43,287 nt of DNA. Source: Candidatus Tepidiaquacellales bacterium OLB4/UTCHB1. Its GTDB lineage: Bacteria; Bacteroidota; Ignavibacteria; Tepidaquicellales; Tepidaquicellaceae. The position numbers were made by a program, and so were the translations under genes. Location: NCBI GenBank assembly GCA_002050165.1, contig MWSW01000015.1, forward strand, positions 1 through 43,287. Direction: 5' to 3'. Below, piece after piece: positions 18 through 43,064 of this stretch. The notes under the pieces were generated by a model. That model had not been told where the DNA came from. It saw only the letters and a program-made list of their open reading frames with translations, and searched no databases. Position 1 is the first letter of the stretch. Each line of letters begins with the position of its first letter.

Positions 18-450
18 TTATTTTACCAACACCATCTTCCCTGAAATTTTATATTCTCCTGATTGCAAAATATAATAATAAATTCCGCTCGAAAGGTCTG
101 AAGCATCAAACTCATATTCATAACTTCCCGGGTTTATAACCTGATTTGCCAAATCGGAAATTTCCCGCCCGAGAATGTTAAACACACTTAGCCTTACATT
201 TGAACCGGACACCGGAATATCGAATTTTATTCTTGTTTATGGATTGTATGGATTAGAATAGTTCTGGTGCAGAGAGAGTTCGTTCGGAATTACATTACTG
301 ATATGTTGCAGACCTGTATTTAGTTAAAGAGAATATTCATCTTTCTGAAAAGCTCACTTTGAATTAATTTGAATCCATAGCATCCGCTTGTACACCGGAT
401 TTGTGAAAACGGAAATATTCAACTCAATGATGTGGCGAGTACAGTGTCTC
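18..450 (-). pseudogene. Decayed T9SS cargo gene, C-terminal remnant
   Basis: The last 64 codons encode a typical T9SS sorting domain (VFNILGREISDL, SSGIYYYIL, ending KMVLVK). Reading upstream in the same frame, the conserved QNYPNPFNP box appears as QNYSNPYNP and is followed at once by a TAA. Further upstream the frame stays protein-like (SVFTNPVYKRMLWIQI, then AFQKDEYSL) but is broken by a TGA and another TAA. A different frame takes over near position 430 (KTGDTVLATS), indicating a frameshift. No start or export signal is visible. I infer a secreted-protein gene that has lost function through several nonsense changes and at least one frameshift. The upstream limit is approximate. Confidence 0.7.
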
Positions 451-12198: not shown

Positions 12199-12240
12199 TT
12201 GAAATCATTTTTATTTTAAATATAAATTAATATATTTAGC
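12199..12240 (+). promoter_or_regulatory. Shared upstream element of the mosaic cargo genes (copy 1)
   Basis: TTGAAATCATTT, a T-rich stretch and TATATTTAG lie 35-75 bp before the start codon. The same arrangement occurs before the next paralogue (from 15898) and, less closely, before the third (from 18519). The TATATTT part approximates the Bacteroidota -7 box. Conservation across copies suggests it is the promoter. Confidence 0.4.
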
Positions 12241-12274
12241 ACAATCCAATTAATAAACCTCTAAAGGAGATAAA

Positions 12275-15200
12275 ATGAAACGAATCTTATTATTTGTATT
12301 CTCTGCTCTCTTTCTGCTTTCACTAAATGTGAAAGATTCTTACTCGCAGCCCGTAACAATTACCATCGGCACTCAGGATGTTCAAAGCGGTACAGGCAGT
12401 TACGGACCAACTAATTATTATTATATGAGCTATAGGATTCAATGGGTCATCACTGCGGCTGAAATAATTGCTGCAGGCGGCGGCGCCGGCAATATTGAAT
12501 CAATGGCATACGATGTCTCTCAAATTGCAGGCGGTGATCTTTTAAACTATGAAGTTCGAATGGCGCACACTACCGCAACCGATGCATCAAGCCATGACAC
12601 CGCTACCCTTACAACGGTTGTTAACTCTCACACTTTCACGCCCGGTTCAACCGGATGGCGTACTCTTACGTTCGATACACCTTTTAACTGGAACGGTACT
12701 GACAACATACTCGTTGATGTTTGCTGGGGAGTGAACTCAGGTTGGAGTAGTTCCGGTCAGGTATGGCTTTACAATAATGTTGCAAACCAGATGAGGGGTA
12801 TTCGCGCCGACGGTTCTAACCAGTGCGGTACTATTACAAGTGATACCCGTTCCGGAAAGCCCCGCGTTCAGCTGACTTTACCACCAGCTTCAAATCCGGT
12901 GTTAAGCGTTACCCCATCGTCGAAAAATTTCGGTGACGTAACGGTTAACCAAACTTCTGCGCAGGTATTTGATATAACTAATGCCGGCGCTGATACATTG
13001 ACTGTAAATGGTATTTCGGTCGCCGATACGACATACTTCAAGTTTACGGATACAAACTCATACCCAGTATCATTGGTGTCAGGGCAGCATATTTATGTAA
13101 CGGTTACATTCACGCCGACAAATACCGGTTCACAATCAACCGATATGACCGTAAACTCCGATATAGATACCTCAACGGTAGCCCTCTCGGGTAAAGGGAT
13201 TAAATACTGCATCCCTCAGGCAAACTGCAGTTATGAATACATTTCCAATGTAACCTTCAGCGACCTGAACCTTACTTCCGGCTCTTCGTGTACAAACGGT
13301 TATATGGATTCATCCGCTACGCATTTCGCCAATATTCAAACGTACAATACTTACACACTGTCATTCACCGTAGTAGAGGGAGGCACTGAATATGTCCGCG
13401 CCTGGTTTGACTGGAACGGCGATTACACCCTTGACACTACGGAGCAATACAGCTACCCGACAGCTATAACTGTTAGCGGAACATACACAATGGATATCAC
13501 CGTACCCGACTCCGCAATTCTCGATACTACACGGATGAGGGTTTACATGAAATATTACTCATATCCCACGCCCTGCGTAACCGGTGGTTGGGGTGAAGCA
13601 GAAGATTACTCTGTTGTCATCACGGCAGGGACTCCGCCGGCTGATGACGTTGGAATTTCTTCAGTTGTAGCTCCGGGCAACGGGCAGATAGTTGACCGCT
13701 CCGGATCGGATGTTTCAGCTTACGTTAAGAATTTCGGTACAAACCCGGCTTCAAATATAGATGTTTATTACAAGCTGGATACCAATTCAGCCATTGGACC
13801 AATCAATATCGCCGGTCCGTTAGCTCCGGGCGATTCAACGCTTGTAACGTTCACCGGTGCGAACCAGCTTACATCAGCAACCGATGTCGCAGGAGCGCTC
13901 AGGATTTATACATCGTTTGCAGGAGACGTGAACGGAACAAATGATACCGCGCAGGTTATTGTAGTCCTTGTAAATCCGTTGTCAGTACCATATTTTGAGG
14001 AATTTACGACACCGGCTTTTTATACCATCTCGGGTACAGCAAACATCTGGAACTTTTTAACAGGCGTCAATCCGGCGGGAACGGCTGCCGATCAAATGGC
14101 TAGAGCTAATTTCTATAATTTTTCATCAGGTTACCAATACCTCAGGACTCCGATAATTGACCTTACGGGTACAAGTAACCCGGTACTTTCTTTTTACGTT
14201 ACATACAGGTCATATTCGGGTGAGGACGATGGTTTAGAGGTCAGGGTTTCAACGGATGGCGGTATGACTTACGATGCGCCGCTTCTTGATAAATCCTATC
14301 TGAGCGTGCCTTCGCTTGCAACTCTCCCCAATAGTTCATCATCCTACACACCGGGGGCAGCCACCGATTGGCGGCACGAGGTATTGGACCTCTCCGTTTA
14401 CGCGGGGCAGAAGATTGTAATCGGGTTTAATGCAATTACCGATTACGGAAATAATATGTGGATTGACAATATAGATGTAACAAACTCTGCCAACGTTTCA
14501 ATTATTCCGGTTGCGGTAACCGGTGCTTACGGAGATTTGTCAACCGATTCCGCACAGGTTATTTTCACTGCCCTCAGGCCCGGTCTCGGAGGCGGTACCA
14601 CACCGCAGCTTGACGGTAAAATCAGTGAAATCGTAAGACCGGAAGGTACGATTATCGGTGAGCTTAAATTTGCGGATGAAAACTCTCCAACGCTGAAAGT
14701 TGAGAGAAACAAAAAGGGTAAAGGCAACAATCCCGGTATAAGTCCGGACGCTTCAACGGGTACCCTTGTGATTTCCCATTTCACGGATTTCCCGCTGAAC
14801 AATACGTTTGCACCGAACGTATCGGCGACCACGTTTAACGGCGCTATTTATACTCCTGACGTAATTTCAAACAGATACTGGGAGATTTCCTTCTCCGGTG
14901 ATGACTACGTTTCGGAGGCAACTTACGATATAGTCCTTGATATCCGCGGGCAACTCGGTGTTGTAACGTACGATTCGTTGTATATTGTAAAACGTGTTGA
15001 CCAAAGCGGTCCGTGGGTATGTCTCTCAACAATAACCGAATACGAGTCAGGCGTACCGGTGAGGTTGAGGGCAAATGGTATATCCGGATTCAGCCAGTTT
15101 GGAATTGCTGCCGCTGACGGTACATTGCCTGTTGACCTGATTGAGTTCAACGCCACTGTTGACCGCAACAATGTAATGCTGAGCTGGTCAACGGCATGGG

Positions 15201-15697
15201 AAGAGAACAACATGAAATTTGACGTACAGCGCAGACCTGCCGAAACCGAGGCATCGTGGCAGACGGTCGGTTCGGTAAAAGGAAGCGGAACGGTTCACGA
15301 GCAGAGGAACTACTCGTATCACGACAAGAGGCTCGTAACGGGCAAGTATGAGTATCGCCTCGTTCAGGTTGATTTCGACGGAAATATAACCGCAGACCAT
15401 AACCTGGGAAGCGTAGTTGAAGTGGGAATCCCGACGGAATTTGCGCTGTCGCAGAACTACCCGAACCCGTTCAACCCGTCAACGAAGATAGACTTCCAGA
15501 TCCCTGTAGAAGGAATGACGAAGCTTGTAATCTTCGACCTGTCGGGCAGGGAGGTAGCAACGCTTGTAAACGAGACATTGATGCCCGGGTATTACACTTA
15601 TGATTTCAACGCGTCAACACTCGCAAGCGGGGTTTACTTCTACAGGTTGGTTTCAAAGGATAACATACAGACGAAGCGAATGGTATTGATTAAATAA
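12275..15697 (+). CDS. Large multidomain T9SS-secreted protein (mosaic paralogue A)
   Basis: A 1140-residue secreted protein with a strong Shine-Dalgarno (AAAGGAG). Order: signal peptide to about residue 25 (NVKDSYSQ); an unnamed beta-rich module 26-205; a HYDIN/choice-of-anchor-D-type module 206-310 (LSVTPSSKNFGDV); a GEVED module about 311-450 (YVRAWFDWNGDYTLDTTEQY, then GGWGEAEDYSVVI); a CARDB-like module 455-565; a choice-of-anchor-J/MAM-like module about 570-735 (MWIDNIDV); a further beta module; the LPVDLIEFNATVDRNNVML pre-sorting linker; and the T9SS sorting domain ending KRMVLIK. No catalytic motif is seen, so adhesion or surface structure is likely. The first 300 residues nearly match paralogue B. 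Its GEVED module has a counterpart at the start of paralogue C. Confidence 0.9.
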   Translation: MKRILLFVFSALFLLSLNVKDSYSQPVTITIGTQDVQSGTGSYGPTNYYYMSYRIQWVITAAEIIAAGGGAGNIESMAYDVSQIAGGDLLNYEVRMAHTTATDASSHDTATLTTVVNSHTFTPGSTGWRTLTFDTPFNWNGTDNILVDVCWGVNSGWSSSGQVWLYNNVANQMRGIRADGSNQCGTITSDTRSGKPRVQLTLPPASNPVLSVTPSSKNFGDVTVNQTSAQVFDITNAGADTLTVNGISVADTTYFKFTDTNSYPVSLVSGQHIYVTVTFTPTNTGSQSTDMTVNSDIDTSTVALSGKGIKYCIPQANCSYEYISNVTFSDLNLTSGSSCTNGYMDSSATHFANIQTYNTYTLSFTVVEGGTEYVRAWFDWNGDYTLDTTEQYSYPTAITVSGTYTMDITVPDSAILDTTRMRVYMKYYSYPTPCVTGGWGEAEDYSVVITAGTPPADDVGISSVVAPGNGQIVDRSGSDVSAYVKNFGTNPASNIDVYYKLDTNSAIGPINIAGPLAPGDSTLVTFTGANQLTSATDVAGALRIYTSFAGDVNGTNDTAQVIVVLVNPLSVPYFEEFTTPAFYTISGTANIWNFLTGVNPAGTAADQMARANFYNFSSGYQYLRTPIIDLTGTSNPVLSFYVTYRSYSGEDDGLEVRVSTDGGMTYDAPLLDKSYLSVPSLATLPNSSSSYTPGAATDWRHEVLDLSVYAGQKIVIGFNAITDYGNNMWIDNIDVTNSANVSIIPVAVTGAYGDLSTDSAQVIFTALRPGLGGGTTPQLDGKISEIVRPEGTIIGELKFADENSPTLKVERNKKGKGNNPGISPDASTGTLVISHFTDFPLNNTFAPNVSATTFNGAIYTPDVISNRYWEISFSGDDYVSEATYDIVLDIRGQLGVVTYDSLYIVKRVDQSGPWVCLSTITEYESGVPVRLRANGISGFSQFGIAAADGTLPVDLIEFNATVDRNNVMLSWSTAWEENNMKFDVQRRPAETEASWQTVGSVKGSGTVHEQRNYSYHDKRLVTGKYEYRLVQVDFDGNITADHNLGSVVEVGIPTEFALSQNYPNPFNPSTKIDFQIPVEGMTKLVIFDLSGREVATLVNETLMPGYYTYDFNASTLASGVYFYRLVSKDNIQTKRMVLIK
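12307..13192 (+). repeat. Duplicated block A/B, copy in paralogue A
   Basis: 886 bp aligning without gaps to 16005-16890, with scattered substitutions. It covers the end of the signal peptide, the N-terminal module and the HYDIN-like module. Similarity stops abruptly at the module end (ALSG-KGI versus ALSG-TGI). Confidence 0.9.
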
Positions 15698-15724
15698 CGA
15701 TAGGTAGTAACCCTCAGTTAACAG

Positions 15725-15758
15725 CGGGCATCGGTGGAAACATCGGCGCCCGTTTTTT
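15725..15758 (+). terminator. Terminator of the CGGGCATCGG family (copy 2)
   Basis: The hairpin differs from the one at 12111 at one loop-side base (CATCGG for CACCGG) and is followed by TTTTTT and the same TTATTGCGC tail. It ends paralogue A. Confidence 0.88.
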
Positions 15759-15897
15759 ATTGCGCTTTTTTTTCAGGCGGAGGTAGCAATGGATTTTTAA
15801 TGAAAACATGAATTCATTTAAGCTTTCAGTGCAGAGTTGCGGGAGATAGCGTTTTTTTTACGAAAGGGGATAATAATTATTCTCCGGTGTAGTGGCA

Positions 15898-15940
15898 TTG
15901 AAATCATTTCTATTTTATATGTAAATTCTTATATTAGGCA
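15898..15940 (+). promoter_or_regulatory. Shared upstream element of the mosaic cargo genes (copy 2)
   Basis: TTGAAATCATTTCTATTTTA followed by TTATATTAGGCA, closely matching the element before paralogue A. It lies 33-75 bp before the start codon, with a strong AGGAGG Shine-Dalgarno in between. Confidence 0.4.
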
Positions 15941-15972
15941 ACAAACCTTTAAACAATTTCACAGGAGGAAAA

Positions 15973-18252
15973 ATGAAACTCATTTCAACAGTAGTTTTTT
16001 CTGTTCTCTTTCTGCTTTCACTAAATGTGAAAGATTCTTACTCGCAGCCCGTAACAATTACCATCGGCACTCAGGATGTTCAAAGCGGTGCAACCGGTTA
16101 CGGACCAACTAATCGTTATTATATGAGCTATAGGATTCAATGGGTCATCACCGCGGCTGAAATAAGTGCTGCAGGCGGCGGCGCCGGCAATATTGAATCA
16201 ATGGCATACGATGTCTCTCAAATTGCAAACGGTGATCTTTTAAACTATGAAGTTCGAATGGCGCACACTACCGCAACCGATGCATCAAGCCATAACACCG
16301 CTACCCTTACGACGGTTGTCAACTCTCACACTTTCACACCCGGTTCAACCGGATGGCGTACTCTTACGTTCGATACACCTTTTAACTGGAACGGTACTGA
16401 CAACATACTCGTTGATGTTTGCTGGGGAGTGAACTCAGCTTGGAATGGTTCCGGTCAGGTATGGCTTTACAATAATGTTCCAAACCAGATGAGGGGTGTT
16501 CGCGCCGACGGTTCTAACCAGTGCGGTACTAATACAAGTACTACCCGTTCCGGAAAGCCCCGCGTTCAGCTGACTTTACCACCAGTTTCAAATCCGGTGT
16601 TAAGCGTTACCCCAACGTTGAAAAATTTCGGTTACGTAACGGTTAACCAAACTTCTGCGCAGGTATTTGATATAGCTAATGTCGGTGCTGGTACATTGAC
16701 TGTAAATGGTATATCGGTCGCCGATACGACATACTTCAAGTTTACGGATACAAATTCATACCCTGTATCATTGGCGACAGGGCAGCATATTTATGTAACG
16801 GTTACATTCACGCCGACAGATACCGGTTCACAATCAACCGATATGACCGTAAACACCGATATAGGTACCGCAACTGTAGCCCTCTCGGGTACCGGCATTC
16901 AGCCGAACTTCGGCTCGAACGGACAATCAGGGAACAATCTTTACTATTTCGCAAATTCACTTTCAGGTGGAAGCGGAGCGCCGTCTCATCCGACATTTGC
17001 CTGGAGAGATACGAGCGGTTCAACCATATTAGTTCAGAACGGTGTTGCGTTCGTTCCGCCAACGGCAGGATCATTAGATGACGGCAGGTGGGATATTCTT
17101 GCCCCGTTACCTGCGGGAAATTCCATAATGTTCTTCGGAACGAATTACACCGATATATACATTAACACAAACGGAGTGATTGGTTTTGCACCTACAACCG
17201 CACCGTTTACAGTAGCTCTATCTTTACCGGCAGCGGGTGGACCATCGGCGGCAATTTATCCGCTCTGGATGGATATGAATTTCAATTACAATAATATCAC
17301 GGGCGGAACCACATTGAGTTATAAAGTTACCGCAGATGAATTGATTATTACTTACAACCGTGTATCGCCTTACGTTGGCGGTGGGGTAACCTCAGCAACG
17401 CCAGATCTTTACGTTTCTTATCAGATTGTAATTTCCCATTCGAGCTCACCGGCGCAAAATTCGATGATTGTACTTCAATACAACTGGGATGAAACCGGAA
17501 TTGATTTCCAAAATGATTACACGTCAACCGGCTTAAGCACCAGAGCTCACATTATCGGGCTTCAGGGTGCGAACGATGCTGCTCAAACGTTCACCTACAG
17601 GAACAGGCACAACACCGGTTTTCAGGGACCAATCTTCGGATCAAACCTCGCCCTTTCAATAGGTCCTGACCAAAACGCTCTTCCGGTTGACTTGATTGCA
17701 TTCAACTCGAACGTTGACCGAAACAACGTAAAGCTCACCTGGACAACAAGCTGGGAGGAGAACAACGCGAGATTTGACATCCAAAGGAAAGTAGCAAACA
17801 CGAGCTCTCAATGGGTAACCGTTGGTACGGTAGCCGGCAGTGGCACTGTCTATGAACAGCGGAACTATACGTTTACCGATAAGAACCTTGTAAGCGGAAT
17901 TTATGAGTACAGGTTATTGCAGTTCGATTACGACGGTAACATGAACGCCGACTTCAACCTCAGCAACACGGTAGAGATTGGCGTACCATCGGAGTTTGCA
18001 CTATCACAGAACTACCCGAACCCGTTCAACCCGACAACGAAGATTGACTTCCAGGTACCTGTAGAAGGATTAGTGAAGCTCAATATAGTTGACATTACGG
18101 GTCGTGAAGTAGCAACGCTTGTGAACGAGTCACTTACCCCCGGATATTACAGTTATGATTTCAATGCATCGAACCTGTCATCCGGAGTATATTTCTACAG
18201 GTTGGTAAGTAAGAGCTCAGTAATCACAAAGAGGATGATGTTGGTGAAATAA
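15973..18252 (+). CDS. Multidomain T9SS-secreted protein (mosaic paralogue B)
   Basis: A 759-residue secreted protein preceded by ACAGGAGGAAAA, an unusually strong Shine-Dalgarno for this genome. Modules: signal peptide to residue 25; the same N-terminal module as paralogue A (26-205); a HYDIN-like module (about 206-308); a nidogen-like module (about 309-570, with YINTNGVIGFAP and AAIYPLWMDMNF); the LPVDLIAFNSNVDRNNVKL linker; and a T9SS sorting domain ending KRMMLVK. The front third is nearly identical to paralogue A and the rest is nearly identical to paralogue C, so the gene is a hybrid of its neighbours. The junction is at the module boundary near ALSGTGIQPNFG. No enzymatic motif is seen. 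Confidence 0.9.
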   Translation: MKLISTVVFSVLFLLSLNVKDSYSQPVTITIGTQDVQSGATGYGPTNRYYMSYRIQWVITAAEISAAGGGAGNIESMAYDVSQIANGDLLNYEVRMAHTTATDASSHNTATLTTVVNSHTFTPGSTGWRTLTFDTPFNWNGTDNILVDVCWGVNSAWNGSGQVWLYNNVPNQMRGVRADGSNQCGTNTSTTRSGKPRVQLTLPPVSNPVLSVTPTLKNFGYVTVNQTSAQVFDIANVGAGTLTVNGISVADTTYFKFTDTNSYPVSLATGQHIYVTVTFTPTDTGSQSTDMTVNTDIGTATVALSGTGIQPNFGSNGQSGNNLYYFANSLSGGSGAPSHPTFAWRDTSGSTILVQNGVAFVPPTAGSLDDGRWDILAPLPAGNSIMFFGTNYTDIYINTNGVIGFAPTTAPFTVALSLPAAGGPSAAIYPLWMDMNFNYNNITGGTTLSYKVTADELIITYNRVSPYVGGGVTSATPDLYVSYQIVISHSSSPAQNSMIVLQYNWDETGIDFQNDYTSTGLSTRAHIIGLQGANDAAQTFTYRNRHNTGFQGPIFGSNLALSIGPDQNALPVDLIAFNSNVDRNNVKLTWTTSWEENNARFDIQRKVANTSSQWVTVGTVAGSGTVYEQRNYTFTDKNLVSGIYEYRLLQFDYDGNMNADFNLSNTVEIGVPSEFALSQNYPNPFNPTTKIDFQVPVEGLVKLNIVDITGREVATLVNESLTPGYYSYDFNASNLSSGVYFYRLVSKSSVITKRMMLVK
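16005..16890 (+). repeat. Duplicated block A/B, copy in paralogue B
   Basis: Counterpart of 12307-13192, same length with no indels. Substitutions are spread along the block, so this exchange is older than the B/C one. Confidence 0.9.
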
Positions 18253-18380
18253 GGGTAGCAGATTCAGGTACATCCCGACGGGGATGAGAAATATAACGGG
18301 CATCGGCACAAACGCCGGTGTCCGTTTTTTTATGTTAAGTTATCTTTTCACGCAAAGGGCGCAGAGTTCGAAGAGATTTT
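16897..18380 (+). repeat. Duplicated block B/C, copy in paralogue B
   Basis: 1484 bp matching 19432-20909 with one net 6-bp length difference (GGGVTSATPDL versus GGTSTTPDL). In the last roughly 690 bp (linker, sorting domain, stop, terminator, 3' flank) I see a single base difference. The match ends 128 bp after the stop codon, at AGAGATTTT. Confidence 0.92.
18297..18331 (+). terminator. Terminator of the CGGGCATCGG family (copy 3)
   Basis: CGGGCATCGGC / GCCGGTGTCCG hairpin followed by TTTTTTT. It is identical to the terminator after paralogue C and related to those after paralogue A and the FG-GAP gene. Confidence 0.85.
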
Positions 18381-18588
18381 TTAAAGGAAAGCAGGTAGTA
18401 ATTATTAGGAAGTAAGTAGTAGTTAACTTTTCTTGCGTACTTAGCGAAATAGCGTTTATAGTGTGAAATGTTACGGAATAAATTCCGGTTAAAGATTTAA
18501 ACATTAAAATAATAACAACCCCTTTTTATTTTATTTGCAAATACTTATATTAATACCCAAACCAATAATCAATTTCACAGGAGGAAAA
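18332..18588. other. Intergenic region with CGCAAAG-type inverted sequence and promoter-like element
   Basis: No gene seen. The start (TTTTCACGCAAAGGGCGCAG) and a later stretch (CTTGCGTACTTAGCGAAATA, about 18438-18457, ending TGTGAAA) form a loose inverted pair of CGCAAAG/CTTTGCG type, reminiscent of small dispersed repeats in other genomes. The first arm recurs after paralogue C, the second does not. TTTTTATTTTA and TTATATTAA near 18522-18553 correspond to the promoter-like element of the other two paralogues. Confidence 0.4.
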
Positions 18589-20781
18589 ATGAAACTCATT
18601 TCTACAGTAGTTTTTTCTGTTCTTTTTCTGCTTTCACTAAATGTGAAAGATTCTTACTCGCAGTACTGTATCCCCGACCCTGCTCCGAACTGTAACTTCG
18701 AATTAATTTCCGAAGTATCATTCAGCAACATGACCAATACGAGCGGTCTGACTTGTGTAGGCGGATATCAGGATTACACCGGTACACACAATGCCAATGT
18801 TATAAAAGGCGCACCGTACAATTTATCGGTTACGATTGATCCGGATGCCAATGATTACATTGTTGCCTTTATTGACTGGAATGGTGACGGTGATTTCGAC
18901 GATGGGGATGAAACTTATCCGGTAGCCGGACCTGTCGGCGATCCCGGACCGCACACAATTAGTATTACCGTTCCTATGACCGCGAATACGGGCGTTACCA
19001 GAATGAGGGTTTACTTGAGGTGGGCGGCTGCTCCGACGCCTTGCATTACCGGTGGTTACGGTGAAATCGAAGATTATGCAGTAACAGTTTCCGGTGGTGG
19101 TGGCGGACCAATATTTGGTGTTACACCATCTACGGGAAGTTTCGGGTACACAGTTGTTGGAGATACATCATCAGCGATACCTTTCAAAATCGGCAATTAC
19201 GGAGGCGGAACGCTGAATATTACTAACACTTCAATCAACGCTATTTTTGACGACCCGAGCCAGTTTATCTTAACGGATACAAATACATATCCGGTTGCGT
19301 TAACCTCAGGTCAGTTCATGTACGTATCGGTTGCATTCGCGCCTTCGTCCGTCGGCTTAAAAGAAGCCAATCTAACCATAACAGATGATCTGTCGGACGT
19401 AGCCCATAACGTTCCATTGTCGGGTAACGGTATTCAGCCGAACTTCGGCTCGAACGGACAATCAGGGAACAATCTTTACTATTTTGCAAATTCACTTTCA
19501 GGTGCAAACGGAGCACCGTCTTATCCGACATTTGCCTGGAGAGATACGAGCGGTTCAACCATATTAGTTCAGAATGGTGTTGCGTTCGTTGCGCCATCGG
19601 CGGGAACATTAGATGACGGCAGGTGGGATATTCTTGCCCCGTTACCTGCGGGAAATTCCATTAAATTCTTCGGTACAAATTATACCGATATTTACATTAA
19701 CACAAACGGAGTGATTGGTTTTGCACCTACAACCGCACCGTTTACAGTAGCTGCATCTTTACCGGCAGCGGGTGGACCATCGGCGGCAATTTATCCGCTC
19801 TGGATGGATTTGAATTTCAATTACAATAATATCACGGGCGGAACCACATTGAGTTATAAAGTTACCGCAGATGAATTGATTATTACTTACAACCGTGTAT
19901 CGCCTTACGTTGGCGGAACCTCAACAACGCCTGATCTTTACGTTTCTTTTCAGGTGGTAATTTCCCATTCGAATTCACCGTCGCAAAATTCGATGATTGT
20001 ACTTCAATACAACTGGGATGAAACCGGAATTGATTTCCAAAATGATTACACGTCAACCGGTTTAAGCACCAGAGCTCACATTATCGGGCTTCAGGGTGCG
20101 AACGATGCTGCTCAAACGTTCACTTACAGGAACAGGCACAACACCGGTTTTCAGGGACCAATCTTCGGATCAAACCTCGCAATGGGAATGGGTCCCGATG
20201 CAAACTCGCTTCCGGTTGACTTGATTGCATTCAACTCGAACGTTGACCGAAACAACGTAAAGCTCACCTGGACAACAAGCTGGGAGGAGAACAACGCGAG
20301 ATTTGACATCCAAAGGAAAGTAGCAAACACGAGCTCTCAATGGGTAACCGTTGGTACGGTAGCCGGCAGTGGCACTGTCTATGAACAGCGGAACTATACG
20401 TTTACCGATAAGAACCTTGTAAGCGGAATTTATGAGTACAGGTTATTGCAGTTCGATTACGACGGTAACATGAACGCCGACTTCAACCTCAGCAACACGG
20501 TAGAGATTGGCGTACCATCGGAGTTTGCACTATCACAGAACTACCCGAACCCGTTCAACCCGACAACGAAGATTGACTTCCAGGTACCTGTAGAAGGATT
20601 AGTGAAGCTCAATATAGTTGACATTACGGGTCGTGAAGTAGCAACGCTAGTGAACGAGTCACTTACCCCCGGATATTACAGTTATGATTTCAATGCATCG
20701 AACCTGTCATCCGGAGTATATTTCTACAGGTTGGTAAGTAAGAGCTCAGTAATCACAAAGAGGATGATGTTGGTGAAATAA
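18589..20781 (+). CDS. Multidomain T9SS-secreted protein (mosaic paralogue C)
   Basis: A 730-residue secreted protein. I choose the ATG that follows ACAGGAGGAAAA and opens the signal peptide (MKLISTVVFSVLFLLSLN); an in-frame TTG 54 bp earlier would add an unlikely extension. Modules: signal peptide to 25; a GEVED module (about 26-175, FIDWNGDGDFDDGDETYPVA, GGYGEIEDYAVTV); a HYDIN-like module (about 180-285) clearly diverged from that of B; a nidogen-like module (about 286-540); linker; T9SS sorting domain ending KRMMLVK. From GIQPNFGSNG to the end it is nearly identical to paralogue B, while its GEVED module resembles the internal one of A. Its N-terminal half therefore has a different origin from that of B. 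Confidence 0.9.
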   Translation: MKLISTVVFSVLFLLSLNVKDSYSQYCIPDPAPNCNFELISEVSFSNMTNTSGLTCVGGYQDYTGTHNANVIKGAPYNLSVTIDPDANDYIVAFIDWNGDGDFDDGDETYPVAGPVGDPGPHTISITVPMTANTGVTRMRVYLRWAAAPTPCITGGYGEIEDYAVTVSGGGGGPIFGVTPSTGSFGYTVVGDTSSAIPFKIGNYGGGTLNITNTSINAIFDDPSQFILTDTNTYPVALTSGQFMYVSVAFAPSSVGLKEANLTITDDLSDVAHNVPLSGNGIQPNFGSNGQSGNNLYYFANSLSGANGAPSYPTFAWRDTSGSTILVQNGVAFVAPSAGTLDDGRWDILAPLPAGNSIKFFGTNYTDIYINTNGVIGFAPTTAPFTVAASLPAAGGPSAAIYPLWMDLNFNYNNITGGTTLSYKVTADELIITYNRVSPYVGGTSTTPDLYVSFQVVISHSNSPSQNSMIVLQYNWDETGIDFQNDYTSTGLSTRAHIIGLQGANDAAQTFTYRNRHNTGFQGPIFGSNLAMGMGPDANSLPVDLIAFNSNVDRNNVKLTWTTSWEENNARFDIQRKVANTSSQWVTVGTVAGSGTVYEQRNYTFTDKNLVSGIYEYRLLQFDYDGNMNADFNLSNTVEIGVPSEFALSQNYPNPFNPTTKIDFQVPVEGLVKLNIVDITGREVATLVNESLTPGYYSYDFNASNLSSGVYFYRLVSKSSVITKRMMLVK

Positions 20782-20909
20782 GGGTAGCAGATTCAGGTAC
20801 ATCCCGACGGGGATGAGAAATATAACGGGCATCGGCACAAACGCCGGTGTCCGTTTTTTTATGTTAAGTTATCTTTTCACGCAAAGGGCGCAGAGTTCGA
20901 AGAGATTTT
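19432..20909 (+). repeat. Duplicated block B/C, copy in paralogue C
   Basis: Counterpart of 16897-18380. Differences are concentrated in the first half; the sorting-domain half differs by one T-to-A change (GCAACGCTAGTG). Terminator and 52 bp beyond the hairpin and its T run are included. Confidence 0.92.
20826..20860 (+). terminator. Terminator of the CGGGCATCGG family (copy 4)
   Basis: Identical to the hairpin after paralogue B, followed by TTTTTTT. It ends paralogue C before the convergent helical-repeat gene. Confidence 0.85.
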
Positions 20910-30337: not shown

Positions 30338-31378
30338 ATGATGACAGATACTGACATAATGTATAAAGCTTTACTCAGGCGGGACACTGAATTTACGGGA
30401 ATTTTTTTTGTTGGCGTAAAAACGACAGGAATTTTTTGTAAACCTACCTGCACGGCTAAAAAACCCAAAAAAGAAAATGTAGAATTTTTCAATTCAGTGA
30501 AGGAAGCGCTGGATAACGGTTATCGTCCCTGTAAAATTTGTAAACCGTTAAGTGATAGCAGTATTGTTCCTCACAAAATAAGGAGATTACTAAAGAAACT
30601 TGAATCAAACGGGTATAAAAAAATTTCGGATCATGAAATTCGAAAAGAGGGGATTGATCCGGTAAGTGTTAGAAAGTGGTTTGTAAAAAAACATGGTTTG
30701 ACGTTTCAGGCGTTTCAGAGGATGATGAGAATTAACATTGCTTTTAAAAAAATAAGGGAAGGTTCAAAAGTAATTGATGCAGCGTACGACAGTGGTTATG
30801 AATCGCTTAGCGGTTTTAACGAAGCATACAGGAAGATCCTGAAAACATCGCCAACTAAGTCGTGTTCAAAATTAATAATCAACATTAAAAGGATTTCTAC
30901 CCCGCTTGGAACAATGTTCATAGCCGGAACTGAGAAAGAAATTTGTCTGGTTGAATTCACAGACAGGAGAATGCTGGAAAGTGAATTCATTGATTTATCG
31001 AAGAGGATGAATGCAGAAATTATTTACGGTGAAAATAAAATTATCAATAAAGCAGAAAAGCAACTAACAGAATATTTCAATGGCAGGCGAAAAAAATTCA
31101 CAGTTCCACTTTTAACACCTGGGACCGAATTTCGTAAACGAGTATGGAAAGAATTGATTAAAATTCCCTATGCTAAAACCATATCATACAAACAACAGGC
31201 AACAAACATCGGAAAGCCTGAAGCGGTGCGGGCTGTAGCATCGGCAAACGGACACAATAGAATCGCAATCATAATTCCGTGTCACAGAGTCGTTGGTGAA
31301 AATGGTCACCTCACCGGATACGGCGGTGGGGTTTGGAGAAAGAAATGGCTAATTGAGCTTGAACAAAAAAATAAATAA
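30338..31378 (+). CDS. ada: Bifunctional DNA repair methyltransferase / transcriptional activator Ada
   Basis: Repairs methylphosphotriesters and O6-methylguanine and, once methylated, activates adaptive-response genes. 346 residues with all three parts: the N-terminal zinc domain with Cys34, Cys38, Cys65 and Cys68 (FCKPTC and CKICKP); an AraC-type HTH region (about 85-180, LTFQAFQRMMRINIAFKKIR, SGYESLSGFNEAYR); and the C-terminal O6-alkylguanine transferase with the PCHRV box (acceptor Cys315) and ASANGHNRIAIIIPCHRVVG. No alkB or alkA follows. It ends just before a bidirectional terminator. Confidence 0.95.
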   Translation: MMTDTDIMYKALLRRDTEFTGIFFVGVKTTGIFCKPTCTAKKPKKENVEFFNSVKEALDNGYRPCKICKPLSDSSIVPHKIRRLLKKLESNGYKKISDHEIRKEGIDPVSVRKWFVKKHGLTFQAFQRMMRINIAFKKIREGSKVIDAAYDSGYESLSGFNEAYRKILKTSPTKSCSKLIINIKRISTPLGTMFIAGTEKEICLVEFTDRRMLESEFIDLSKRMNAEIIYGENKIINKAEKQLTEYFNGRRKKFTVPLLTPGTEFRKRVWKELIKIPYAKTISYKQQATNIGKPEAVRAVASANGHNRIAIIIPCHRVVGENGHLTGYGGGVWRKKWLIELEQKNK

Positions 31379-31405
31379 AAAAACCCTGCCGAAGCAGGGT
31401 TTTTT
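31378..31405. terminator. Bidirectional terminator between ada and the barrel gene
   Basis: Perfect 12-bp stem AAAAAACCCTGC / GCAGGGTTTTTT with a 4-nt CGAA loop and T runs on both strands. It serves ada on the plus strand and the convergent barrel gene on the minus strand. Confidence 0.88.
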
Positions 31406-31426
31406 GTTCTAATGTTCAGGAATTGT

Positions 31427-31975
31427 TTAGAATCTGTAGTTCACGCCGGCGTATCCGCCCATGTAACTTGTTGATGACCCTTCGGTAAATATGTTATGAA
31501 ATTTTACCTTTCCTACGAAATTCATTATCGGGCTGATTGGTACCTCTAAACCTGCACCACCGTTAATCCCGAAATCAGTGCTTGAAGCTGAAATGTCACC
31601 GATCATCGTAGAAACGCTCGAACTTGAACTGTAAATACCTGCGCCGACTTCACCGATGAATGAAGCACCACCAAAATTATATGTATATCTCGGACCCACG
31701 GTTGCCTCGATTATATGTGAGGAAACACCGTCTGTTTTCGGGGCGAGGAAGTTGTAAGCGCCGTTTCCATATACTGACCAATTTTTATCAATTGTATATT
31801 GAATATCAACACCGACATTTCCGCTTGCATTGTTTGCGTCACCGAAAGAACCAACGGGTAAAGTTCCACCACCGTAAACTGTTACCTTAACGGGGCTTGT
31901 TTGCGCGTTAGAAACATTCGAGATAATAAAGAAAGACATGAGCAATACAACTGAAAAATAAAACAGGTTTTTCAT
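31427..31975 (-). CDS. Outer-membrane beta-barrel protein
   Basis: A 182-residue protein with a signal peptide cleaved after SNAQ (residue 25). The mature part shows regular amphipathic strands rich in Gly, Tyr and Ser (VTVYGGGTLPVG, VGPRYTYNFGG, INGGAGLEVPI) and ends in YAGVNYRF, with a terminal aromatic residue as recognised by the BAM machinery. Small eight-stranded OmpA/OmpW-like barrels have this size. Function unknown. A good Shine-Dalgarno (AAAGGAGAAA) precedes the start. Confidence 0.85.
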   Translation of the reverse strand: MKNLFYFSVVLLMSFFIISNVSNAQTSPVKVTVYGGGTLPVGSFGDANNASGNVGVDIQYTIDKNWSVYGNGAYNFLAPKTDGVSSHIIEATVGPRYTYNFGGASFIGEVGAGIYSSSSSVSTMIGDISASSTDFGINGGAGLEVPISPIMNFVGKVKFHNIFTEGSSTSYMGGYAGVNYRF

Positions 31976-32333
31976 TTTTTGATTTTCTCCTTTAGTTTAA
32001 AGTTATTTTATGTAACAAACTTTCGATTGTTTAAATTGTTCCGATAGATTCAACAATTTTTTCAATTAAGTTTTCTCAATAAGAAAACTTTTTTAAAAAT
32101 GAAATTGTCTCAAAGTTAAGCAAATAAAAATTAATCTTCCATGACACAGAAAAAATTTTTGGTCTAGATAACGTGTGGAAAGGTAACGTTAGGTTTAAAA
32201 ATTTAAACAATAAAATTGATTGAAACTCTTTTATATAAAGATTGATAAAAGTACAGACCGGAAATAAAGTATTTATGAATAATGGGTAATAGAGTACTAA
32301 AAATTTTTAAGGTTTTCTAATCAAACTTTTTTT
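31976..32333. other. AT-rich region upstream of the barrel gene
   Basis: No gene seen. A hairpin AAGTTTTCT / AGAAAACTT followed by TTTT lies at 32068-32094. It could be a terminator for weak plus-strand transcription or part of the barrel gene's leader. The rest is featureless. Confidence 0.3.
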
Positions 32334-32560
32334 ATGTTTGATATATACATACCGGATAAATCAAAAGGGTTATTGACAATTATTTTTCACGTTACTTTGC
32401 TGACTATAAAGTAGAATTATATGATTTAGCCGATTTACTTGATTGTAGTGTTGCATTTGTCAACAGGCAACTTTCTGCCCATCGCTGGTACAAAATACCG
32501 ATTCATTCTAATACGAAAGGAACCATCAGGTTTTTCAGGACGACAAAGGTTGTTATTTGA
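32334..32560 (+). pseudogene. Small HTH (excisionase/MerR-like) gene interrupted by a frameshift
   Basis: ATG opens MFDIYIPDKSKG. A -1 shift at AAAAGGG (32363-32369) then gives a frame of about 66 codons with no start of its own: IDNYFSRYFADYKVELYDLA, continuing through DLLDCSVAFVNRQLSAHRWY to IRFFRTTKVVI. ELYDLADLLDCSVAFVNRQL reads like a helix-turn-helix of the HTH_17 type, followed by a basic Arg-Phe-Phe-Arg strand. The joined product would be about 76 residues. It overlaps the 3' end of the convergent BNR/T9SS gene by 8 bp. It is a recent pseudogene or, less likely, uses programmed frameshifting. Confidence 0.55.
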
Positions 32561-33797
32561 CAAGTACCATCCGCCTTGTTTGGATATAATTTCCCACTTC
32601 AAGTTTGTAGAAATATACACCGCTTGGGAGAGACGAGGTATGAAACGAATAGTTATATGTACCCGGACTTAGGATTTCATTAACGAGTTCAGCTATTATC
32701 TTACCGGACACGTCAAATACAATAAGTTTTGTGTTCCCGGTAACAGCTATATCAAAGCTTATGTTAGTCACAGGATTGAACGGATTAGGATAATTCTGGC
32801 GTAATGAATGTTCAGATGGGAGAATCTCGGATGTTTGTTTGACGTTGACAATTTCCGAAAGACCTCGTCTATAAACACCTTTGCCGATTGTCCCGGCAAA
32901 CAAATAATCATTTGATATCAACAAGGTTCTTACATTTAAAGTGTCCAACCCCTCGTTCTTTTGTACCCAACTTAAGCCGTTGTCTTTAGATAAAAAAATC
33001 CCACCTGTTTCAGTACCGGCAAATATGTTTTCACCACTAATTGTGATAGATCTTACTCGTTGATTGTTCAAGGATGTTTGTGTCCAGTTCGCGCCGTTGT
33101 TTGAAGACATGAAAATTCCTGTACCATAAGTCCCGGCATAGATTTTATCTCCACTAACAGCTATTGACATAATACTTCGATTGCTTAATCCTAAAAATGA
33201 CCAGGTTGCACCAAAATCTGATGAATGATATACTCCTCCTGCACTATTGCCATTAAACACCAAGCCAGCATATATTCTGTTTTCGTTGATACAAATTGAC
33301 TCGACATCAGGATTAGTAAGAGGTGTATTTGACCAGTTAATACCATTATCGGAAGACACATAAACGCCACCCGGATAAACACACCCCCAGGTACCGGCAA
33401 ATACATAGTTTTCAATTACTGCAAGTGCAGGAATTAATCGTTCGTTGAACGAGGTTTGTATCCAGCTTACTCCATTATCAGTTGAGCGATATACACCACT
33501 TGAATTATTACAAAAATCGTAAACTGAGGTATATACGTAATTGTCGTTTGCTGCGACAGAAATAGTATATAAATTTCCTAATGATGTCTGAAACCACTCA
33601 ATTCCATTATTTGTAGATTTATATACACCATTAAATACTGAAACATAATAATTATCCCCACTTACTGCCATAGACGAAATATATTTATCATTCCCCAGAC
33701 CATTCGACATTTGCTCCCATTGAGCTTTACTTTCATCCGAAAAGAAAATGAAATTTATCAATAACGAAATGCAAAATACAAAAATCATTTTTTTCAT
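32553..33797 (-). CDS. BNR-repeat (sialidase-like propeller) protein with T9SS sorting domain
   Basis: A 414-residue secreted protein. Signal peptide to about residue 25 (ESKAQ). Six BNR/Asp-box motifs of the S-x-(D/N)-x-G-x-x-W type are spaced regularly across residues 60-300 (STNNGIEW, STDNGVSW, SSDNGINW, SSDFGATW, SSNNGANW, SKDNGLSW), as in sialidase-type and Ycf48-type propellers. No catalytic sialidase residues are evident, so binding or structural use is likelier. A T9SS sorting domain ends the protein (RQNYPNPFNPVTNI to RRMVLVK). Confidence 0.9.
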   Translation of the reverse strand: MKKMIFVFCISLLINFIFFSDESKAQWEQMSNGLGNDKYISSMAVSGDNYYVSVFNGVYKSTNNGIEWFQTSLGNLYTISVAANDNYVYTSVYDFCNNSSGVYRSTDNGVSWIQTSFNERLIPALAVIENYVFAGTWGCVYPGGVYVSSDNGINWSNTPLTNPDVESICINENRIYAGLVFNGNSAGGVYHSSDFGATWSFLGLSNRSIMSIAVSGDKIYAGTYGTGIFMSSNNGANWTQTSLNNQRVRSITISGENIFAGTETGGIFLSKDNGLSWVQKNEGLDTLNVRTLLISNDYLFAGTIGKGVYRRGLSEIVNVKQTSEILPSEHSLRQNYPNPFNPVTNISFDIAVTGNTKLIVFDVSGKIIAELVNEILSPGTYNYSFHTSSLPSGVYFYKLEVGNYIQTRRMVLVK

Positions 33798-33845
33798 TTT
33801 TCAAAAACTACTTCTATTATGTTAGAATTTCGTATAATTTTATTT

Positions 33846-34376
33846 TTAATCCTCTTGAAATTCAACACCACCGAAATCACATTTTCCACCTATGGTTTCA
33901 TATACATATACTCTAACAACCTCGTTTGGAGGTAGTGGGTAACTAAAACTTGTTGAACCAGAATAAATTTTTCTATCGTAAGTTTCAATACAAACCGATC
34001 GTAAGTATGAGCAATTAGTACTACACCAAGGAAGTACAGCACCCATTGCAGTTGGATTTGAGCCACCTGTAATGTAAGAACAATAATATGAATTATTATT
34101 ACAATCTGTACCTGAATGAGTAACTTTAGCTTTGTAAATAGTGGAGTAGTCAAACTCTGTTTCTGAGTTCATGAAAAATATGTATAAACATAAATGTTCT
34201 CCCTTACCGTCATTACAATAAGTAGGGATAGGACATTTATCTGGTTGAGCGTTACATCCACTGAGATTACCCACTTCAAAATTTTTGTTAATGTCAGTTT
34301 CTGTAATATCACATGATATTAAATATTACATCGCAATAAAGAAAACAGTATTTGCGATTACAATTATTTTTTTCAT
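33846..34376 (-). pseudogene. Cysteine-rich lipoprotein gene with a stop codon inside its signal peptide
   Basis: Read from the ATG at the right edge, the frame gives MKKIIVIANTVFFIAM, then TAA, then YLISCDITETDINKNFEVGN and on through the whole protein. MKK plus a hydrophobic stretch plus LISC is a standard lipoprotein signal with lipobox, so the TAA is a point nonsense mutation in an otherwise open 177-codon gene (TTA to TAA is the simplest change). Internal restart at the GTG 34 codons in would give a 142-residue protein without export signal. The mature region has many Cys (CNAQPDKC, YCND, CNNNSYYCSY, WCSTNCSY, KCDFGG), as expected for an exported disulfide-rich protein. Family unknown. 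Confidence 0.75.
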
Positions 34377-34735
34377 GATTTGTTTTTTGGGTTTATATCT
34401 AAAATAATTTACAAATACTATGATTTATGTCACATTATTTAAATTAATTATATGAGGTGATAATGCTATTTATCCTGACAATAGAATCTTGCAGCTGACG
34501 ATACCTGATAACTGCTAAAACATTTTTTGACTAAAAATATTAAATCATTTTAACCTAATTGTACGGATGGTAAACGTAACGAACCTGGATGAATTTTATA
34601 TTACCAATTGGAAATGCTGGGATGAAACTGCTGAACTGCATTTGAATACAGATTTTTAAAAATTGAAAGAATTTCCGGAAGGTTACAAAAACAAACTCCC
34701 ATTACTATTTTTCATTAAAAGCTTATAAACAATAA
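34377..34735. other. 359-bp region without a supported gene
   Basis: AT-rich. A 30-codon frame from 34567 (MVNVTNLDEFYITNWKCWDE, then ending at TAA) continues in frame after the stop as KLKEFPEGYKNKLPLLFFIK; it may be a degraded small gene. It probably holds the proS promoter. No terminator or repeat seen. Confidence 0.3.
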
Positions 34736-36214
34736 ATGGCTAAAGAGATTACTACAAGAGAAACCGATTACGCAAAATGGTATAACGACCTTGTTCTCAA
34801 AAGTGAACTTGCGGATTACTCGGCTGTCCGCGGTTGTATGGTAATAAAACCATACGGATTTGCGCTTTGGGAAAATATGCGAGACGCTCTCGATAAAATG
34901 TTCAAAGACACCGGTCACGTTAATGCATACTTCCCGCTGTTCGTTCCGAAAAGTCTTTTCGAAGCGGAAGAAAAAAATGCAGAGGGCTTTGCCAAGGAGT
35001 GTGCAATCGTAACTCATTACAGATTAAAGAGCGACCCCGATAAACCGGGCAAGTTGATGGTTGACCCGGATGCAAAACTCGAAGAGGAGCTTATAGTCAG
35101 ACCTACGAGCGAAGCAATTATCTGGAACACTTATAAAAGTTGGATTCAATCTTATCGCGACCTTCCGATTTTAATTAATCAGTGGGCGAATGTTGTCAGA
35201 TGGGAAATGCGCACACGCCTTTTTTTACGAACGGCTGAATTCCTGTGGCAGGAGGGACATACGGCACATGCAACCGAACAGGAAGCAATTGAGGAAACTG
35301 TAAAAATGATGAACGTTTACGCCGATTTTGTTGAGAACTGGATGGCGTTGCCCGTGCTTAAAGGTGTAAAATCGGAAAACGAGCGATTTGCCGGTGCGGT
35401 GGAAACGTATTGTATTGAAGCGCTTATGCAGGATGGAAAAGCGCTTCAGGCAGGTACAAGCCATTTTCTCGGTCAGAATTTCGCTAAGGCGTTTGATGTA
35501 ACTTTCACCGACAGGGACAACAAACTTGATCACGTATGGGCGACTAGCTGGGGTGTAAGTACTAGGCTGATCGGAGCACTTGTTATGGCACATGGAGATG
35601 ATGATGGTCTGATACTTCCGCCAAAAATTGCGCCGATACAGGTTGTAATAGTTCCGATTTATAAAAACGATGAACAGAAATCGGTTATACATTCAAAAGT
35701 GCAACCGTTGTTGGTCGGATTGAAGAATGCGGGAATACGATATAAATATGACGATAGCGATAATGCAAGACCCGGATGGAAATTTGCCGAGTATGAAATG
35801 AAAGGTGTACCTGTCAGGATAACAATTGGTGCAAGGGACGTTGAAAACAATTCAGTGGAAGTTGCACGGCGAGATCTTAAACAAAAAACGGTTATGTCAA
35901 TGGATGGTCTAATCCCAAATATTTCCGCATTACTTGATGAAATCCAAAAGAGCATTTTTAATAAAGCGCTGGAGTTTCGAAAGGCAATGACCACGAATGT
36001 GGAAACATTCGATGAGTTTAAAACAGTGCTTCAGGAAAAAGGAGGATTTATTTCGGCACATTGGGATGGTTTTTCCGGGACTGAAGAGAAAATTAAGGAA
36101 TTGACGAAAGCTACTATCAGGTTAATCCCGCTTGAAGATGACGGAGAAAGCGGAAAATGTATATTAACCGGTAAACCCAGCAAGAGAAGGGTTATCTTTG
36201 CGGTTGCATATTAG
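34736..36214 (+). CDS. proS: Prolyl-tRNA synthetase, archaeal/eukaryal type
   Basis: Charges tRNA-Pro. At 492 residues and without the bacterial insertion domain it is the short archaeal/eukaryal-type (ProS type 3) enzyme. Class II motifs are visible: motif 1 region ([18 protein letters not shown]), motif 2 ([20 protein letters not shown]), motif 3 ([20 protein letters not shown]). The anticodon-binding domain begins near IQVVIVPIY, and a C-terminal zinc/tyrosine-type tail ends in VAY. The Pro-AMP binding RPTSEA and TSHFLGQNF elements are intact. It probably starts a short operon with the membrane protein 33 bp downstream. Confidence 0.97.
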
Positions 36215-42429: not shown

Positions 42430-43064
42430 ATGAAGAAGGTTTTAGGAGCATTATTAATTCTACTGTCATTAAAAAGCAATTTAATTGCTCAGTGGTCACA
42501 ACAAACGAGCGGGACTTCAGAATATTTAACGACAGTTTACTTTGCGTCCGAGAATGTAGGGTATATTTCAGGTGGAATGCAGACCGTATTAAAAACAGTT
42601 AATGGTGAAAACTCCTGGCAGGCAATTAATATCAACCTTTTCCCAGGTGAAGAAATGAGTTGTATTTATTTTTTAAATGAAAATACGGGCTGGGTTTCAA
42701 CCGGATGGATATGTGGTTCGGGGGGAACCGTTGTAAAAATGACTAACGGAGGGGCTGTCTGATCAGTTCAAAACACCGGAACAACCAGCCGGAAATTCCG
42801 GAAAAGTTTTCACTGAAACAAAATTATCCAAATCCATTTAATCCGATAACCCTTATTCAGTTCGATATTCCAAAATCCGGTATGGTTAAACTATATATTT
42901 TCGATGTAACCGGAAGAATGATTGATGTGCTTGTAAACGAAGAACTATCTGTAGGAACTTATGAATACTCGTTCAATGCCGGTGAGTTACCGAGTGGAGT
43001 TTACTTTTATAAACTTGAATCTGACGGGCAGAAAATTACGAAGAAAATGGTATTGAACAAATAA
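42430..43064 (+). pseudogene. Collapsed Ycf48/BNR-type T9SS cargo gene
   Basis: The first part (110 codons) has a signal peptide and two Ycf48-like repeats (VYFASENVGYISGGMQTVLK, IYFLNENTGWVST), then stops at TGA just after NGGAV. A T9SS sorting domain follows in another frame (IPEKFSLKQNYPNPFNPITL to KKMVLNK), with no start codon before it except deep inside the domain. A normal family member would have several more repeats between. I infer an internal deletion that removed most of the propeller and put the sorting domain out of frame. The sorting domain is most like that of the neighbouring metalloprotease at base level. Confidence 0.75.

Follow-up and report, generated by a model that had tools for sequence, protein, structure and literature searches.

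A single in-frame stop codon in the signal peptide of a cysteine-rich lipoprotein gene: a probable young nonsense pseudogene of Candidatus Tepidiaquacellales bacterium OLB4/UTCHB1

The window, that is, the whole 43,287-nucleotide stretch of contig MWSW01000015.1 analysed here, contains the gene of a small lipoprotein that is interrupted by one TAA within its signal peptide, and the likeliest explanation is a young nonsense pseudogene, to which we give a probability of about three in four. Both this figure and the lower weight assigned below to an error or a strain mixture are matters of judgement. The stop falls in the hydrophobic core of the signal peptide, where translation would halt after 16 residues, short of the lipobox. 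From what is generally understood of lipoprotein maturation, a product that never reaches the lipobox would be neither exported nor lipidated, and no anchored protein would be formed. If the gene is a true pseudogene, the TAA should be present in living cells, and it could plausibly have arisen by a single substitution. The first-pass annotation had stated that one base explains the loss; this origin is plausible rather than firm because there is only one clear relative, from which the ancestral codon is not recoverable.

The frame on the minus strand, from 34376 to 33846, translates as MKKIIVIANTVFFIAM*YLISCDITE...FQED*, and its 177 codons include the internal and the terminal TAA, leaving 175 sense codons. 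This translation bears out the initial description of a frame that is intact save for a TAA at codon 17. The same description placed the stop directly before LISC, which is right as to the signal peptide and wrong as to adjacency, since one Tyr codon, and no other, intervenes. Lipoproteins of the signal peptidase II type have a charged start, a hydrophobic core and a lipobox with a cysteine. All three are visible by eye in this gene, as in its intact relative, and the stop interrupts them. The remainder of the protein is indeed Cys-rich, as had been noticed from the letters, with 11 cysteines in the 159 residues downstream of the stop. The same 531 bases were shuffled 2000 times with their dinucleotides preserved. 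In-frame stops then numbered 12.9 on average and 5 at the least; none of the shuffles reached an open run of 159 codons, the longest being 124, indicating that the frame is not a product of chance.

Table 1. Coordinates of the interrupted lipoprotein gene, its parts, other window genes discussed in the text and the intact relative
Feature	Position	Strand	Basis or remark
Interrupted lipoprotein gene (probable near-complete pseudogene), 177 codons, one internal TAA	33846..34376	-	Frame and intact relative
Internal TAA, codon 17, within signal peptide	34326..34328	-	Pairs with a sense codon in the relative
Lipobox LISC, Cys at codon 22 (same codon number in the relative)	34311..34322	-	Translation and alignment
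Would-be mature Cys-rich part; 8 Cys common to the relative besides the lipobox Cys	33849..34313	-	Alignment
Intact gene, 414 aa, Asp-box (BNR) repeats and type IX secretion tail	32553..33797	-	48-nt gap to the lipoprotein gene
Type IX secretion tail with internal TAA, no open gene in front	30-260	-	Remnant at contig start
Asp-box-like gene with type IX tail	42430-43061	+	TGA and (by eye) frameshift before the tail
Intact relative, 181 aa	L031:5950-6495, JAPLFJ010000009.1		Lipobox Cys at codon 22

The protein encoded after the stop was searched in 59 genomes, including the window's own, of which 23 gave some match at E up to 1. The only strong foreign match (E 2.2e-43, 49% identity) was found in G007, which belongs to the family of the window's genome, and the DNA of that gene is identical to a segment of JAPLFJ010000009.1 from Ignavibacteriae bacterium isolate LacPavin_0920_WC57_MAG_36_34 (MAG, Ignavibacteriota). 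The relative has an open frame with a sense codon aligned to the window's TAA. The comparison of this codon in relatives, which the first-pass annotation had proposed as a check, thus returns a sense codon in the single clear relative. Each of the two proteins has 11 cysteines, 9 of which are common to both, the lipobox cysteine among them. The 8 shared and 2 private cysteines besides that of the lipobox suggest disulfides, and the ancestral gene probably encoded an anchored surface protein with disulfide bonds. Downstream of the stop, the window gene and the relative differ at codon positions 1, 2 and 3 in 55, 52 and 77 of 156 codon pairs, and the NG86 estimates are dN 0.44 and dS 1.25. The low dN relative to dS, together with the position pattern, indicates that the lipoprotein family was under purifying selection; the ratio mostly covers the time before the stop and, with one close relative only, the window branch is not separable from it.

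The age of the stop could be considered in terms of further damage. For a neutral copy, the chance of a second lesion would reach 95% after about 11-81 substitutions, over the range of transition biases and indel rates assumed, and no second lesion was seen in the lipoprotein frame. A single lesion implies that the stop is either recent or not real. In the latter case, the TAA would stem from a fault of assembly or base calling, or from a base of a minority strain that entered the consensus, and the gene would be intact and encode an ordinary lipoprotein. A wrong base in this draft assembly (19 contigs, 99.27% complete) would look identical to a true nonsense mutation, and only a single codon is broken while the frame, the lipobox and the shared cysteines are conserved. 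However, the stop at codon 17 lies outside any homopolymer, and the assembly appears mostly clean when judged by the frames of its type IX secretion tails. The genome has 112 such tails, whose open frames total 68,920 codons, and 6 of them lie in open frames shorter than 140 codons, which means that short or broken frames do exist. Counting all six as errors gives about 0.015 per 175 codons, a rate that is not decisive alone because the lipoprotein gene was chosen for being broken. We therefore regard an error or strain mixture as unlikely, at about one chance in five. Ten or more of the 112 tails are found no more than 500 bases away from the end of a contig, where tail repeats may have broken the assembly.

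Two other surface genes of the window, a tail remnant at the contig start and an Asp-box-like gene near the other end (Table 1), also look broken, and both are among the six frames shorter than 140 codons. They would be in keeping with gene loss, but both sit close to the ends of the contig, which are more prone to error. In 309,526 bases, made up of the window and 16 stretches of the genome, 10 intact lipoprotein signals were found, together with one carrying a single stop (this gene) and none carrying two, under strict rules that were drawn up with knowledge of this case.

The tail DNA of the Asp-box-like gene at 42430-43061 is 81% identical to the tail of the gene that precedes it. On the plus strand, the tandem secreted genes at 12199-20909 form a mosaic, in which 16885-18380 and 19420-20909 share 96.6% identity, while 12199-13201 and 15898-16899 share 92.7%. 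The middle gene therefore combines the front part of one neighbour with the back part of the other. Furthermore, 66 open codons without ATG at 32360-32560 on the plus strand resemble, by eye, the end of a small DNA-binding protein and are perhaps a remnant.

Mosaic surface genes of this kind bring up the idea of a gene toggled on and off by phase variation or antigenic switching, to which the surface-type nature of the lipoprotein and a run of seven A in its codons 2-4 could be added. We consider it extremely unlikely. No repeat tract lies at the stop, and slippage in the A run would change the frame and leave this stop in its own frame. Only weak inverted repeats occur in 31300-35000: the longest spans 27 nt at 78% around the neighbour gene, and the best-matching one, at 93%, has only 15 nt. 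Direct repeats in the same interval are likewise short or imperfect. Moreover, a donor copy is absent, as the genome contains the lipoprotein gene only once, even with E up to 10 allowed.

Another alternative is that the stop is sometimes read through or suppressed, or that translation restarts beyond it, so that some protein is made. The frame downstream of the stop is intact, as readthrough would need, and an in-frame GTG at 34274 offers a possible restart. Suppression is opposed by the tRNA genes, because all 41 tRNA matches carry sense anticodons (150 of the 216 first-look candidates were scored and 66 were not). TAA is a common terminator that ends 22 of 34 listed window ORFs, a count that includes the lipoprotein gene and some doubtful ORFs and omits 16 of 50, and the stop is not shared by the relative, both of which argue against readthrough. 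The GTG lies beyond the lipobox, so a product that began there would lose it, and the relative has a different codon at that position; no alternative start would be expected to rescue the lipoprotein. Taken together, production of some protein by any of these routes seems very improbable, and the more specific proposal of a conditional switch, in which occasional readthrough of the TAA in the signal peptide sets the dose of the lipoprotein at the surface, is scarcely credible. Among the readings first offered for this locus, that of a very recent pseudogene is thus the best, whereas a phase-variable or suppressed state is disfavoured by the tRNAs, the single copy, the repeats and the relative.

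A search for further members of the lipoprotein family with a two-row alignment as query found one clear foreign relative, again that of G007, among 29 family, 44 order, 395 phylum-sample and 391 class-sample genomes, sets that overlap and each include the window's own genome. In G019, a 265-aa protein whose start resembles that of a lipoprotein is a weak match (E 1.9e-4). Seven further genomes gave matches at E up to 0.01, none of which covers more than 101 of 184 positions; in five of the seven, stops lie inside the match. Plasmids and phages contained nothing matching the lipoprotein at E 0.01, and two scans of genome contigs confirmed none of 27 stretches and one of 50, respectively. At E 0.1, no family of Pfam or NCBIfam matched the window protein, and none of Pfam did so even at E 5. 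The relative's protein alone gave a match to the malarial ETRAMP (E 0.0014) and one to a rubredoxin-like domain (E 0.27), both of which were taken as chance. The AlphaFold2 model, built from the two-row alignment, was poor (mean pLDDT 54, eight strands), and a PDB fold search with it gave no match at E 0.001; fibronectin III and transthyretin led the weaker ones. A sequence search of solved structures reached E 0.12 at best, with an endolysin, and Rfam gave no match in 31300-35000. Among the titles listed in the literature search, none concerned this lipoprotein gene. The family is small, rarely found, uncharacterised and Cys-rich.

The gene context was compared between the two loci. As in the window, an Asp-box gene lies downstream of the lipoprotein gene in JAPLFJ010000009.1, with 38% identity between the two Asp-box genes, and unlike in the window, the signal peptide there is free of a stop. 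Within 19.9 kb around the relative, comprising 11 ORFs, only the lipoprotein and Asp-box genes match the window at this place. The shared neighbour could suggest an operon or functional pair, but it is weak evidence because the Asp-box family is so large: each of 29 genomes, among them that of the window, has at least 53-76 matches with E of 1e-20 or lower. Moreover, the closest relative of the window's Asp-box neighbour, which lies in G003 (60%), is preceded by a different secreted gene and has no match to this lipoprotein within 1.5 kb on either side, which weakens such a pairing further. In the same genome, two adjoining secreted genes (L121:1498-4206, minus strand) share one tail sequence, as if homogenised or swapped.

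A young nonsense pseudogene at this locus would be one more loss of a surface-type gene, an ordinary event of little wider importance. In practical terms, annotation would miss the lipoprotein gene or call a short product beginning beyond the lipobox.

The proposed pseudogene fits a class treated in PMC13345370. In that study, near-complete pseudogenes are those that keep more than 65% of the gene and have a broken frame; they are treated as the youngest class, and small changes, including single-base nonsense mutations, are assumed to be likelier as the first lesion. The cases there are from endosymbionts with very many pseudogenes, a load that is not seen for the genome considered here. The likeness lies in the form of the damage: the lipoprotein gene retains 175 sense codons against the 181 aa of its relative, well above 65% when measured on this one homologue, and its frame is interrupted relative to that intact homologue, so that, as in the near-complete pseudogenes of that study, most of the length is kept and the frame is broken.
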